A stretch of 64,000 nt of DNA from Phenylobacterium sp. NIBR 498073 (lineage in GTDB: Bacteria > Pseudomonadota > Alphaproteobacteria > Caulobacterales > Caulobacteraceae): NCBI RefSeq assembly GCF_027286305.1, contig NZ_CP114599.1, forward strand, positions 2,170,001 to 2,234,000, in the 5' to 3' direction. A program made the translations under genes and the position numbers. Under the pieces are notes generated by a model, which did no database searches, had not been told where the DNA came from, and was given only the letters and a program-made list of their open reading frames with translations. Below are positions 50,298-58,960 of this stretch, one piece after another; position 1 is the stretch's first letter, and each line of letters starts with the position of its first letter.

Positions 50298-50700
50298 AGC
50301 TTCGTCCCCCTGAACACGCCCCGGGCGGCGCCCGGCTGAACGCCATAGCTCGGCCGCGAGGCGTTGCGGATACTGTTGCCGCATGGGTTGCGATGACGTG
50401 AATGCGCGCGAGGGTGGTGGAAATTCAGGGCGCGTTGTCGCGCAGCCTGGCATTGGCGGTCCGTCTGCCGCCGGCGCCGGACCCGACTTCTACTCAGGGC
50501 GTAGTTCGCGATGATGGGTCGAATTCGCGCGGAACTCCCACACGGACGTCAGCTTCGCCGCGGAACGCGCCTCAGGGCGAGATTGATTCAGATCAAGGCT
50601 CCGATCACGCCAAGGAACATTGATCTCACAAGACGTCAGGCGAGGGGGCCCATTTTCGACAGATGGCGTTTCAGAGCGCCTCTGTCGCTTGGAGGGTCTG
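50298..50700. other. Intergenic region before the SCP2-like gene
   Basis: No gene is supported. It carries the promoter of the SCP2/debranching pair with the FNR/FixK box at 50583-50596 and a weaker half-site TTGAT at 50620-50624. Confidence 0.6.
50583..50596. promoter_or_regulatory. Perfect FNR/FixK-type binding site
   Basis: TTGAT-TCAG-ATCAA exactly fits the TTGAT-N4-ATCAA consensus of FNR/FixK-family regulators. It lies 105 bases before ATG 50701, so a promoter in between, activated from about -40, is plausible. Confidence 0.75.
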
Positions 50701-51063
50701 ATGAAAACGACCTCGTCTGGCGACCCCGCCACGGAACCGATCAAATGGGCCTCAATGCGAGGTCACGCTCCGGGCCTGGAGGACATTGCCGGACGGCTTC
50801 GGCTTCAGGTGGCCGGGGTCGACGCAGGGGTGCTGAAGGTCGAAAGCGGCGCCGTCGAGATTCTCCCTGAGGGCGACGCGTCCGCCCTGATGGCCGTCGA
50901 CAGCCAGGCGACGCTGCTGAGTGTTCTTAGCGGCGACACTCACCCCTTCGTCGCCTTCCTGCAGGGTCGGTTGCGCTTGGAAGGCGATCGCGCGCTCGCA
51001 CTGCGTATCGGGTTCGGCCTGCGAGCCGGTTCGCCCTGGAGCGGCCTCACTCCTGGGAGTTAA
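50701..51063 (+). CDS. SCP2-like lipid-binding protein
   Basis: 120 residues from ATG 50701, after GGAGG. The pattern ILPEGDASALMAVDSQATLL, VLSGDTHPFVAFLQGRLRLE, GDRALALRIGFGL matches the SCP2 sterol-carrier fold, which binds lipid in a hydrophobic tunnel; residues near the end are the family-typical G-[KR]-[LI]-x-[LI]-x-GD. The first 25 residues are non-conserved. It ends 4 bases before the debranching-like gene. Expected control by an oxygen-sensing FNR/FixK regulator. Catalytic function is not expected. Confidence 0.75.
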   Translation: MKTTSSGDPATEPIKWASMRGHAPGLEDIAGRLRLQVAGVDAGVLKVESGAVEILPEGDASALMAVDSQATLLSVLSGDTHPFVAFLQGRLRLEGDRALALRIGFGLRAGSPWSGLTPGS

Positions 51064-51067
51064 CGCC

Positions 51068-53146
51068 ATGGTCTTGGACACGATTAGCATCCTCGACGGC
51101 AATGAGTTCGTCGTGAGCAATCATCAGGGCGACCTCGACGCGACGCCCGCGGCGCATCACGGGTTGTTCCTGGACGACACGCGGTTCCTGTCGCGTTGGG
51201 TGCTGACCATCAATGGCCAGCGGCCGATCCTGCTTTCGATCGACGACACCTCCTACTATCGGGTCCAGCACTTCCTCGCTCTGGCGACGGGCGAAGTCTA
51301 TATCGACTCCCACCTGACCGTCGTTAGGCAGCGCGCCGTCGGCGGGGGGTTCCACGAAATCCTGAACCTCGCAAACCATGGCCAAGAGCCTGTTGACCTC
51401 GAGATTCGCATCGAGGCGGCGGCTGATTTCGCCGATCTGTTCGAGGTCAAGGACAAGCTGAGCAAGAAGGGGCAGCTGTATTCCAGCGTGGAGAATGGAG
51501 AGGCGCTAACGCTCGGGTATTGCCGCGATCAGTATCGGCGTGAGACGCGGATTACGAGCAGCGTCCCTGCAGAGCTGAACGAAACCGGCCTGACCTATCG
51601 GATTCGTCTGGATCCGCTCCGGCAGGACACCAACTCGATCTGGACGACGCACATCGATGTGATCGCCGTCAAGGATCCCGACAGCACTCCGGCCAAGGCG
51701 ACTTCTCGACTTGGGAACGAGGGCGTTCGGCCCGAGCTCGCGGAGAACCTGAAGCGCTGGGTCGACGGCGCGCCGAAGGTCGTCGCGTCATGGCAGCCGC
51801 TTGAGCATATCTACCGTCGCAGCTTGGTCGACCTCGCCGCGCTTCGATTTCGCAAGCCCATCCTCCTCGGCGCGATGCCCGCGGCGGGCCTGCCCTGGTT
51901 CATGACCGTTTTCGGCAGGGACAGTCTGTTGACCAGCTTTCAGGCCATTCCGTTTATGCCGGACCTCGCAGCCACCACGCTGCGCACACTGGGCCTTCTG
52001 CAATCGCGTGCGCATGATGAGTTTCGCGACGCCGAGCCCGGCAAGATTCCGCACGAAGTCCGCTTCGGCGAGATGACCGCCTTCGAAGATACGCCCCACT
52101 CGCCCTACTATGGGACTGCCGATGCGACGCCGCTGTTCCTGATCCTCATGGAGGAATACGAGCGCTGGACCGGGGACCGCGCCCTTGTGCTCTCGCTGGA
52201 AAGCGAGGCGCGCGCCGCCATAGCGTGGATCGACAACCACGGCGACCGCGACGGGGACGGTTACATCGAATACGAGCGCCGCAATCCGAACGGCCTCGAG
52301 AACCAATGCTGGAAGGACTCCGGGGATTCTATCGCGTTCGCGGACGGAACTCTGGCGGACACCCCTCGGGCGACTTGCGAACTGCAGGGTTACGCCTATG
52401 ACGCCAAGCGGCGCACCGCGCGCCTTGCGCGGGAGGTCTGGAAAGACTCCGTATGGGCCGCTGAACTTGATCGGCAAGCGGACGAGCTAAAGCGCCGGTT
52501 CAATGATGAGTTCTGGGTCCCCGACCGGAAATTCTTCGCTCTCGCGCTCGACGGCCGCAAGCGCAAGGTCGACTCTCTGACATCAAACATCGGCCATCTT
52601 CTGTGGAGCGGGATCGCCGATGAAGATAAGGCCAGGCACTGTGTCGAGCACCTCTTGGGCGAAGCCCTTTTCTCCGGTTGGGGCGTGCGCACGACGGCCC
52701 AGACCGAAGGGTCCTATAACCCGATCGGTTACCATGTCGGCACCGTGTGGCCCCACGACAACGCCTTCATCGCGTGGGGGCTGCGACGCTATGGGTATGC
52801 GGCAGAGTCCGCACGCCTCTCGTACGCGATGCTGGAGGCGGCCGAGCTATTCCACCACCGACTCCCGGAAGCGTTCGCGGGATACAACCGCGCCATTACC
52901 AAGTTCCCGGTCGAGTATCCGACCGCGTGCAGCCCGCAGGCCTGGGCCGCCGGGGCTCCGTTGTTACTGATCCGCGCTCTCCTTGGCCTGGAATCCATAG
53001 GTGGAAACCTGATCGTCGATCCGGCGCTTCCCGAGACCCTCGGACGACTTGAGACCCTGGATATTCCGGGACCCTGGGGACGACGAGACGCTTTCGGTCG
53101 CGCAAGGGGCGAGATCCCATCAAATCGCCGGCGTGGCCAAGGCTGA
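51068..53146 (+). CDS. Glycogen-debranching-like (amylo-alpha-1,6-glucosidase) protein
   Basis: 692 residues from ATG 51068, with GGAG upstream. The N-terminal GDE_N-bis-type domain begins VLDTISILDGNEFVVSNHQG and DGLFLDDTRFLSRWVLTING. The C-terminal (alpha/alpha)6 barrel has MTVFGRDSLLTSFQAIP, IPHEVRFGEM, DGYIEYERRNPNGLENQCWKDSGDS and GTVWPHDNAFIAWGLRRYG, with the catalytic acids expected in these blocks. Such enzymes remove alpha-1,6 branches of glycogen or related glucans. Its codons are less GC-rich at third positions than those of neighbours, which suggests recent transfer. Paired with the SCP2-like gene (4-base gap). The extreme C-terminus (SNRRRGQG) looks unconserved. Confidence 0.85.
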   Translation: MVLDTISILDGNEFVVSNHQGDLDATPAAHHGLFLDDTRFLSRWVLTINGQRPILLSIDDTSYYRVQHFLALATGEVYIDSHLTVVRQRAVGGGFHEILNLANHGQEPVDLEIRIEAAADFADLFEVKDKLSKKGQLYSSVENGEALTLGYCRDQYRRETRITSSVPAELNETGLTYRIRLDPLRQDTNSIWTTHIDVIAVKDPDSTPAKATSRLGNEGVRPELAENLKRWVDGAPKVVASWQPLEHIYRRSLVDLAALRFRKPILLGAMPAAGLPWFMTVFGRDSLLTSFQAIPFMPDLAATTLRTLGLLQSRAHDEFRDAEPGKIPHEVRFGEMTAFEDTPHSPYYGTADATPLFLILMEEYERWTGDRALVLSLESEARAAIAWIDNHGDRDGDGYIEYERRNPNGLENQCWKDSGDSIAFADGTLADTPRATCELQGYAYDAKRRTARLAREVWKDSVWAAELDRQADELKRRFNDEFWVPDRKFFALALDGRKRKVDSLTSNIGHLLWSGIADEDKARHCVEHLLGEALFSGWGVRTTAQTEGSYNPIGYHVGTVWPHDNAFIAWGLRRYGYAAESARLSYAMLEAAELFHHRLPEAFAGYNRAITKFPVEYPTACSPQAWAAGAPLLLIRALLGLESIGGNLIVDPALPETLGRLETLDIPGPWGRRDAFGRARGEIPSNRRRGQG

Positions 53147-58147: not shown

Positions 58148-58960
58148 ATGAGCTGGGCTAGGATCATGGCGCCCTTGTCAGGTGGAGAAGGCGACAAGGC
58201 CGTGATAGCCGCCGCGGCCAAACTCGCCGAGCCGTTCGGCGCCGAGCTGGCGGGCGTCTACACCCCTGCCGACGTCGCCGACGTGATGCCGTGGATGGGT
58301 GAAGGATTCCTGGGCGGGGTGCAGACCACCGCCCTGGAGTCGCTGAAGGAAGCCGCCGTCGCCGGCGAGAGGAACGCCCGCGCCGCCATGGCCGCGACGC
58401 CCTACGCCAAGGCGCAGTTCACCGCCTTGCAGACCCCGGTATGGGCCGGTCTGTCGGCCGAGAGCCGGTTGTCTGACGTGGTCGTCTTCAACAACGATTC
58501 CGCGCGTGGTCGCGGCCCGCTGGCCGAGGCCTTCCAACAGATGGTGGCCGACGAGCAACGGCCGGTGCTGGTGGCCCGCGACGGCTTCGCCGTGGGCGGC
58601 CCGATCGCAGTCGCCTGGGACGGGGGCAAGGAGGCCTCGCGCGCCGCCCGGCTGGCGATGCCGCTGCTGGAAAAATCCAAGCATGTCGTGATCCTGGCCG
58701 CGCCGAAGGCGACCTCGCGCAGCTTCGATCCGCACCGGTTGCAGGCCTATTACGCCGCTCGCGGCGTGAAGGCCGATGTCGACGTCCTGCCCGACAGCGG
58801 CGACGCCGCGCCGTTGCTGCTCTATGCAGCCAGCAAGGTCGGGGCGGGCATCCTGGTCGCCGGCGCGTTCGGTCATCCGCGGCTGCAGGAGTTCATCTTC
58901 GGCGGCACCACCCGCACTCTGCTGTCGGCCGAGCAGCCGTCACTCTTCCTTTCCCACTAG
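58148..58960 (+). CDS. Universal stress protein (UspA family)
   Basis: 270 residues, so a tandem or extended UspA architecture: half one begins ARIMAPLSGGEGDKAVIAAA and half two GPIAVAWDGGKEASRAARLA. The ATP-binding motif G-x2-G-x9-G(S/T) is suggested by GAGILVAGAFGHPRLQEFIF, followed by GGTTRTLLS. USPs aid survival under starvation, low oxygen and other stress. The start has an AAAGGA ribosome site. The FixK-like box upstream suggests oxygen control. A hypothetical gene follows after 17 bases. Confidence 0.88.
   Translation: MSWARIMAPLSGGEGDKAVIAAAAKLAEPFGAELAGVYTPADVADVMPWMGEGFLGGVQTTALESLKEAAVAGERNARAAMAATPYAKAQFTALQTPVWAGLSAESRLSDVVVFNNDSARGRGPLAEAFQQMVADEQRPVLVARDGFAVGGPIAVAWDGGKEASRAARLAMPLLEKSKHVVILAAPKATSRSFDPHRLQAYYAARGVKADVDVLPDSGDAAPLLLYAASKVGAGILVAGAFGHPRLQEFIFGGTTRTLLSAEQPSLFLSH

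Follow-up and report, generated by a model that had tools for sequence, protein, structure and literature searches.

A candidate FixK-controlled gene pair encoding an SCP2-fold protein and a GH133-type glucosidase in Phenylobacterium sp. NIBR 498073

Architecture of the locus

There are two closely spaced genes on the plus strand of the window, which is the whole 64,000-nucleotide stretch of Phenylobacterium DNA that was analysed, and a palindromic FixK/FNR-type box is located in front of them. The box, TTGATTCAGATCAA, occupies positions 50583 to 50596, is assigned to neither strand, and matches TTGATN4ATCAA with 0 mismatches. It is the only site within 0-1 mismatch of this pattern when all 64,000 nucleotides of the window are scanned. 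A first-pass annotation had called it a perfect FNR/FixK consensus, and both the sequence and its coordinates agree. The centre of the box is 111.5 bases from the start codon of the first gene (ATG at 50701) and 104 bases intervene between the end of the box and this codon, which is the spacing that had been described.

The first gene (50701 to 51063, plus strand) has a putative ribosome-binding site (RBS), GGAGGG, at 50691 to 50696 on the same strand and encodes a 120 amino acid protein. It had been described as SCP2-like, and it matches the Pfam family SCP2 (PF02036) at 6.6e-7, above the cut-off, and its profile matches SCP2 among solved chains at 1e-14. The AlphaFold2 model is of moderate quality (pLDDT 84, pTM 0.75), and its top Foldseek match is rabbit SCP2 (1c44, 5.7e-6), with UbiJ and the SCP2-like domains of SdsA1 and Pisa1 also among the fold matches. 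Thus, Pfam profile and predicted fold both place the protein in the SCP2 superfamily. It has the fold and Pfam family in common with SCP2, UbiJ, UbiT and the C-terminal domain of SdsA1. It differs in being freestanding and tied to a glucosidase, and it resides in a genome with no match to the family of UbiU and UbiV. In alkylsulfatases of the SdsA1 type, handling of the alkyl chain is the role ascribed to the SCP2-like domain.

The stop codon of the SCP2 gene ends at 51063 and the ATG of the second gene begins at 51068, which confirms the gap of 4 bases given earlier. A putative RBS for this gene, GGGAG (51055 to 51059, plus strand), forms part of the end of the SCP2 gene. The second gene (51068 to 53146, plus strand) encodes a 692 amino acid protein with an N-terminal beta domain, an (alpha/alpha)6 barrel and no obvious signal peptide. 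The earlier assignment of a debranching-like enzyme is upheld by matches to the Pfam families GDE_N_bis (6.8e-47), MGH1-like GH (2.5e-17) and GDE_C (8.5e-9). A profile built from 31 relatives matches the solved structure 7vma over its full length (E 7.5e-137). The AlphaFold2 model (pLDDT 89) gives a Foldseek match to 7vma of 9.3e-49, and superposition yields a VIA Z of 54.4 with an rmsd of 2.0 over 601 residues. The next families, which are GH63 enzymes, follow at Z 35-37.

Two acidic residues are invariant in 31 homologues and align with the same motifs of 7vma. These are D417 in a WKDS motif (codon 52316 to 52318, plus strand) and E601 in an LPE motif (codon 52868 to 52870, plus strand). Their catalytic counterparts in the glycogen debranching enzyme (GDE) of Candida glabrata are Asp1241 and Glu1492 (PMC4837477), and by this analogy D417 is the probable general acid and E601 the probable general base. 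The features looked for in a GH133-type amylo-alpha-1,6-glucosidase, namely full-length homology with a matching fold and the conserved Asp/Glu pair, are both found, and we take 7vma to be a member of CAZy family GH133. It is the archaeal-type GDE of Thermococcus gammatolerans STB12, an amylo-alpha-1,6-glucosidase that cuts alpha-1,6 bonds and acts best in branched maltodextrin (PMC9142091). The two enzymes have the full-length match, the two-domain architecture and both motifs in common. In contrast to this relative, the window enzyme is bacterial, is only about 31-33% identical to it and is encoded behind an SCP2 gene.

A FixK-type box and its candidate regulators

Perfect TTGATN4ATCAA sites are rare in this genome (4.29 Mb, one contig), where there are 4 of them versus 0.20 expected from base composition and 0 sites for a reversed control pattern. 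The wider consensus TTGAYN4RTCAA, published as the Fnr box of Sphingopyxis granuli (PMC7713065), has at least 16 sites versus about 2.0 expected from base composition. These comprise 14 among the matches listed, the window site upstream of the SCP2 gene, and a site before a ccoN-like gene. The latter site, TTGATTTCGGTCAA, is located about 64 bases before the start of the gene (L141 6227-6240; G000:C1:2440226), which is named from its own sequence and its neighbours. Most conspicuous is a cluster of TTGAYN4RTCAA sites between 1137 and 1160 kb, within 23 kb.

There are 2 FixK-like regulators of the Crp/FNR family in the genome (L123 and L124). Both carry an ETVSR recognition helix, and the FNR-type cluster of N-terminal cysteines is absent from both. 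One of these adjoins hemN, a gene for a heavy-metal P-type ATPase, and ccoG, with the cluster that holds the ccoN-like gene nearby. The other is located inside a stress/fermentation island and has its own box upstream. Thus, regulators with an E..SR helix occur together with boxes before known targets, as expected for FixK/FNR control. Given how few perfect sites there are, and that the wider consensus recurs at ccoN and in the stress/fermentation island, TTGATTCAGATCAA is very probably a FixK site. The low-oxygen control proposed by the first-pass annotation is therefore well supported at the level of sequence, by the two regulators, by the boxes at ccoN and in the island, and by the rarity of perfect sites.

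The FixK/FnrN regulons of other alphaproteobacteria have the same box consensus (Sphingopyxis, PMC7713065; the Rhizobium small heat-shock protein, PMC11784457; Caulobacter FixK, PMC3751524) and share ccoN, hemN, uspA and Hsp20 as kinds of target with this genome. The FNR-type regulons of Rhizobium and Sphingopyxis in particular include ccoN, hemN, uspA and a gene for a small heat-shock protein (PMC11784457, PMC7713065). However, in the passages of these reports that were consulted, no target is an SCP2-glucosidase pair (PMC7713065, PMC11784457, PMC3751524).

The island that carries the box cluster is about 25 kb long (L007 3484-16001 and L008 1-14000; G000:C1:1137483-1164000), has a low third-position GC content and resembles a dormancy or hypoxia regulon. 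It encodes four Usp proteins, Hsp20, PfkB, a PPDK/PEP-synthase-like protein, a P-type ATPase, a beta-CASP nuclease, BON and DUF2267 proteins, and a Host_attach/baeRF12 protein. The boxed FixK-like regulator belongs to it as well, and Pta and AckA come next. The window too has a universal stress protein gene (58148 to 58960), but this one lacks a TTGATN4ATCAA site at 0-1 mismatch, in contrast to several Usp genes in the island. A cupin-like gene and a gene for a metallo-beta-lactamase of persulfide-dioxygenase-like type flank another perfect TTGATN4ATCAA site (L005 8068-8081; G000:C1:248067), with an ArsR-type regulator adjoining. A cupin is likewise a direct Fnr target in Sphingopyxis (PMC7713065).

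A gene pair conserved in four phyla

An SCP2-like gene is located directly upstream of the glucosidase gene in a Phenylobacterium metagenome-assembled genome (MAG; L012), a gammaproteobacterial MAG (L013), Manganitrophus of the Nitrospirota (L014 and L045), Chloroflexota (L015 and L016) and Micromonosporaceae (L020 and L023-L025). In a maximum-likelihood tree the SCP2-paired enzymes (10 in the tree) form one clade with support of 100/100, the SCP2 gene is upstream in 10/10, and the clade spans Pseudomonadota, Nitrospirota, Chloroflexota and Actinomycetota. With genes in the compared loci called by a simple composition rule, the intergenic gap is 58 bases in L016 and ranges from -4 to +10 bases in every other pair, and four pairs exhibit an ATGA overlap. 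Pfam SCP2 is matched by 9/10 aligned partner proteins, and 5/10 also match Alkyl_sulf_C. The assignments of L013-L016 are those of MAGs, for which wrong binning is a usual risk. The spread across phyla is backed by the complete Manganitrophus chromosome (L045), whose glucosidase frame looks broken, and by Micromonospora isolates. Judged from this upstream position in 10/10 across four phyla, the SCP2 gene is not an incidental neighbour.

A search of the open-access literature for a description of an SCP2 and debranching pair, or of SCP2 together with FixK, yielded nothing relevant. The suggestion that this is a small undescribed system is thus supported, as the pair is conserved in four phyla and no description of it was found in that literature. 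A sister clade of the SCP2-paired enzymes (L017, L018, L021 and L022) has no adjoining SCP2 gene, and its glucosidase genes are followed by genes for a pyridine-nucleotide-disulfide-type oxidoreductase and an HtrA-like protease.

Proposed local origin of the box and probable acquisition of the pair

The box does not travel with the pair. Within 300 bp upstream, a box at 0-1 mismatch is found in 0/10 other pairs, including the one other from Caulobacteraceae (L012). The best upstream matches have 2-4 mismatches and, except weakly in L012 and L016, are no better than those in shuffled sequence; a conserved box is therefore rejected. A strict match in L015 is located inside the upstream coding region and was likewise set aside. 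The first-pass annotation had named relatives that keep the pair without the box as an outcome that would refute its proposal, and this outcome is what was found as regards a conserved FNR link. Because no other pair has the box, FixK control looks like a local acquisition rather than a defining part of the pair, and the pair, judged by its distribution, is tied neither to oxygen control nor to alphaproteobacteria.

Among 385 alphaproteobacterial genomes, the SCP2-clade enzyme is found in the host genome only, and the sole further match at E<=1e-140 has 40% identity. There are no further carriers of the SCP2 clade among 398 sampled genomes of the host's phylum at E<=1e-145. Plasmid-borne relatives are at most about 43% identical among the matches listed and below 60% in all 194 records, and they are not evident members of the SCP2 clade. 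No SCP2 relative was found on viral contigs. The two genes have a third-position GC content of 0.74 and 0.77, compared with 0.86-0.92 for their neighbours. Their codon-usage log-odds (+0.18 and +0.14) resemble those of the hypoxia island (+0.10 to +0.22), whereas core genes range from -0.21 to +0.03. These values suggest that the pair was horizontally acquired, perhaps from a source similar to that of the island.

Possible function of the pair

We consider it moderately probable that the locus is a horizontally acquired two-gene operon under FixK control, which would make an SCP2 partner and a GH133-type glucosidase at low oxygen. At low oxygen a FixK-type dimer would bind the box and turn on one transcript, a step that is well supported by the genomic context. 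The transcript would yield the SCP2-fold protein and then, 4 bases on, a predicted cytosolic inverting alpha-glucosidase of GH133 type. The enzyme could free sugar from an alpha-1,6-branched glucan or an alpha-glucoside, and this sugar might feed the PfkB, Pta and AckA stress metabolism of the box-rich island. Given its fold and fixed position, the SCP2 protein is probably a dedicated subunit of the enzyme or its substrate or lipid handler, which might take charge of a hydrophobic portion of the substrate. It probably works with the enzyme because it is the fixed upstream partner throughout one clade in four phyla, with a gap that is usually <=10 bases or an overlap. A bolder version, which we rate as quite unlikely, is that SCP2 is a lipid-presenting subunit that makes the GH133 enzyme act on an alpha-glucosyl lipid or lipid-linked glucan, and that a pair mobile across phyla was captured here by FixK to use a non-glycogen sugar store without oxygen.

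A simpler explanation is ordinary debranching of glycogen or maltodextrin at low oxygen, with the SCP2 gene as an incidental neighbour. The closest solved relative is indeed an alpha-1,6 debranching enzyme that acts on branched maltodextrin, and other pairs adjoin alpha-glucan enzymes, namely GH15 in L014/L045 and a classical GDE in L015. However, there is no Pfam match in the genome to glycogen phosphorylase (PF00343) or to the GT5 glycogen synthase GlgA (PF08323), there is one GH13 gene, and the lone match to the GH57 branching-enzyme family (PF03065) is better explained as a polysaccharide deacetylase (PF01522). Absence here is judged by these Pfam families, and the same searches matched most control genomes. 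With GlgA, GlgP and GH57 not detected and a single GH13 gene, classical glycogen debranching by the pair is doubtful; the synthase and phosphorylase of a glycogen catabolic pathway are not found. The SCP2 gene upstream in every clade member also argues against this explanation, which as a whole we consider unlikely. The proposal of glucan handling is thus doubtful as far as glycogen debranching is meant, but an alpha-glucan substrate stays likely, because GH15 or a classical GDE adjoins other pairs. A GT4-made glucan or another alpha-glucoside is possible.

Perhaps the enzyme is instead a glucosidase for glycolipids or lipid-linked sugars, with SCP2 as the protein that holds the lipid part and offers it to the barrel, similar to the role ascribed to the SCP2-like domain for the alkyl chain in SdsA1-type alkylsulfatases. 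The Alkyl_sulf_C matches of half the partner proteins, the SdsA1/Pisa1 domains among the fold matches and the missing classical glycogen pathway all fit this idea, and the fixed pairing wants a reason. Against it, the enzyme most closely resembles a polysaccharide debrancher and an SCP2 fold alone is no proof of lipid binding, and we give the idea a small chance.

The box could also be a chance match or serve the divergent GT87 gene (minus strand, coding region 49038 to about 50320-50453), which would leave the pair without oxygen control. No common -10 element emerged when the sequence downstream of the boxes was inspected by eye, none could be clearly placed at class II spacing, and the other pairs have no conserved box. 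However, perfect sites are rare, sites of the wider consensus stand at ccoN, at a FixK-like gene and in the stress island, and the site is intergenic and 104 bases from the SCP2 start, all of which make this alternative improbable. A role as a UbiT-like factor of oxygen-independent ubiquinone synthesis was rejected as very improbable: ubiTUV is under Fnr control in Escherichia coli (PMC10470549) and has an Fnr site in Sphingopyxis (PMC7713065), and UbiJ is among the SCP2 fold matches, but there is no match to the U32 family of the partners UbiU and UbiV (PF01136) in this genome and a glucosidase is the partner gene in every clade member.

Both folds of the operon favoured here are already known, whereas a fixed SCP2-glucosidase pairing is not described in the open-access literature that was searched. 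SCP2 pairing defines one clade of debranching-type enzymes, in place of the GT4 partner of many relatives. No glycogen pathway is detectable in this genome, and the pair may thus reveal an unrecognised alpha-glucoside store as well as a lipid-carrier protein that cooperates with a glycosidase. Through the FixK box, a simple inducing condition is available for its study.

More distant relatives often adjoin a GT4 glycosyltransferase gene, which 48/82 loci carry; L016, with both GT4 and SCP2, is counted among these. The host genome itself has a GT4 gene followed by a GDE_N_bis enzyme gene (L138 7135-10366; G000:C1:4161134-4164365), an arrangement that is frequent in the host's genus and has an echo in Actinomycetota. 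This genus-common paralogue (G000:C1:4162299) belongs to the same enzyme family as the window glucosidase, with 39% identity, but has GT4 rather than SCP2 as its partner and falls in a separate part of the tree. An archaeal GT4-GH133 neighbourhood, whose role is unclear, is mentioned in a review (PMC11046441). The GT4-GDE_N_bis pair is found in organisms without classical glycogen genes.
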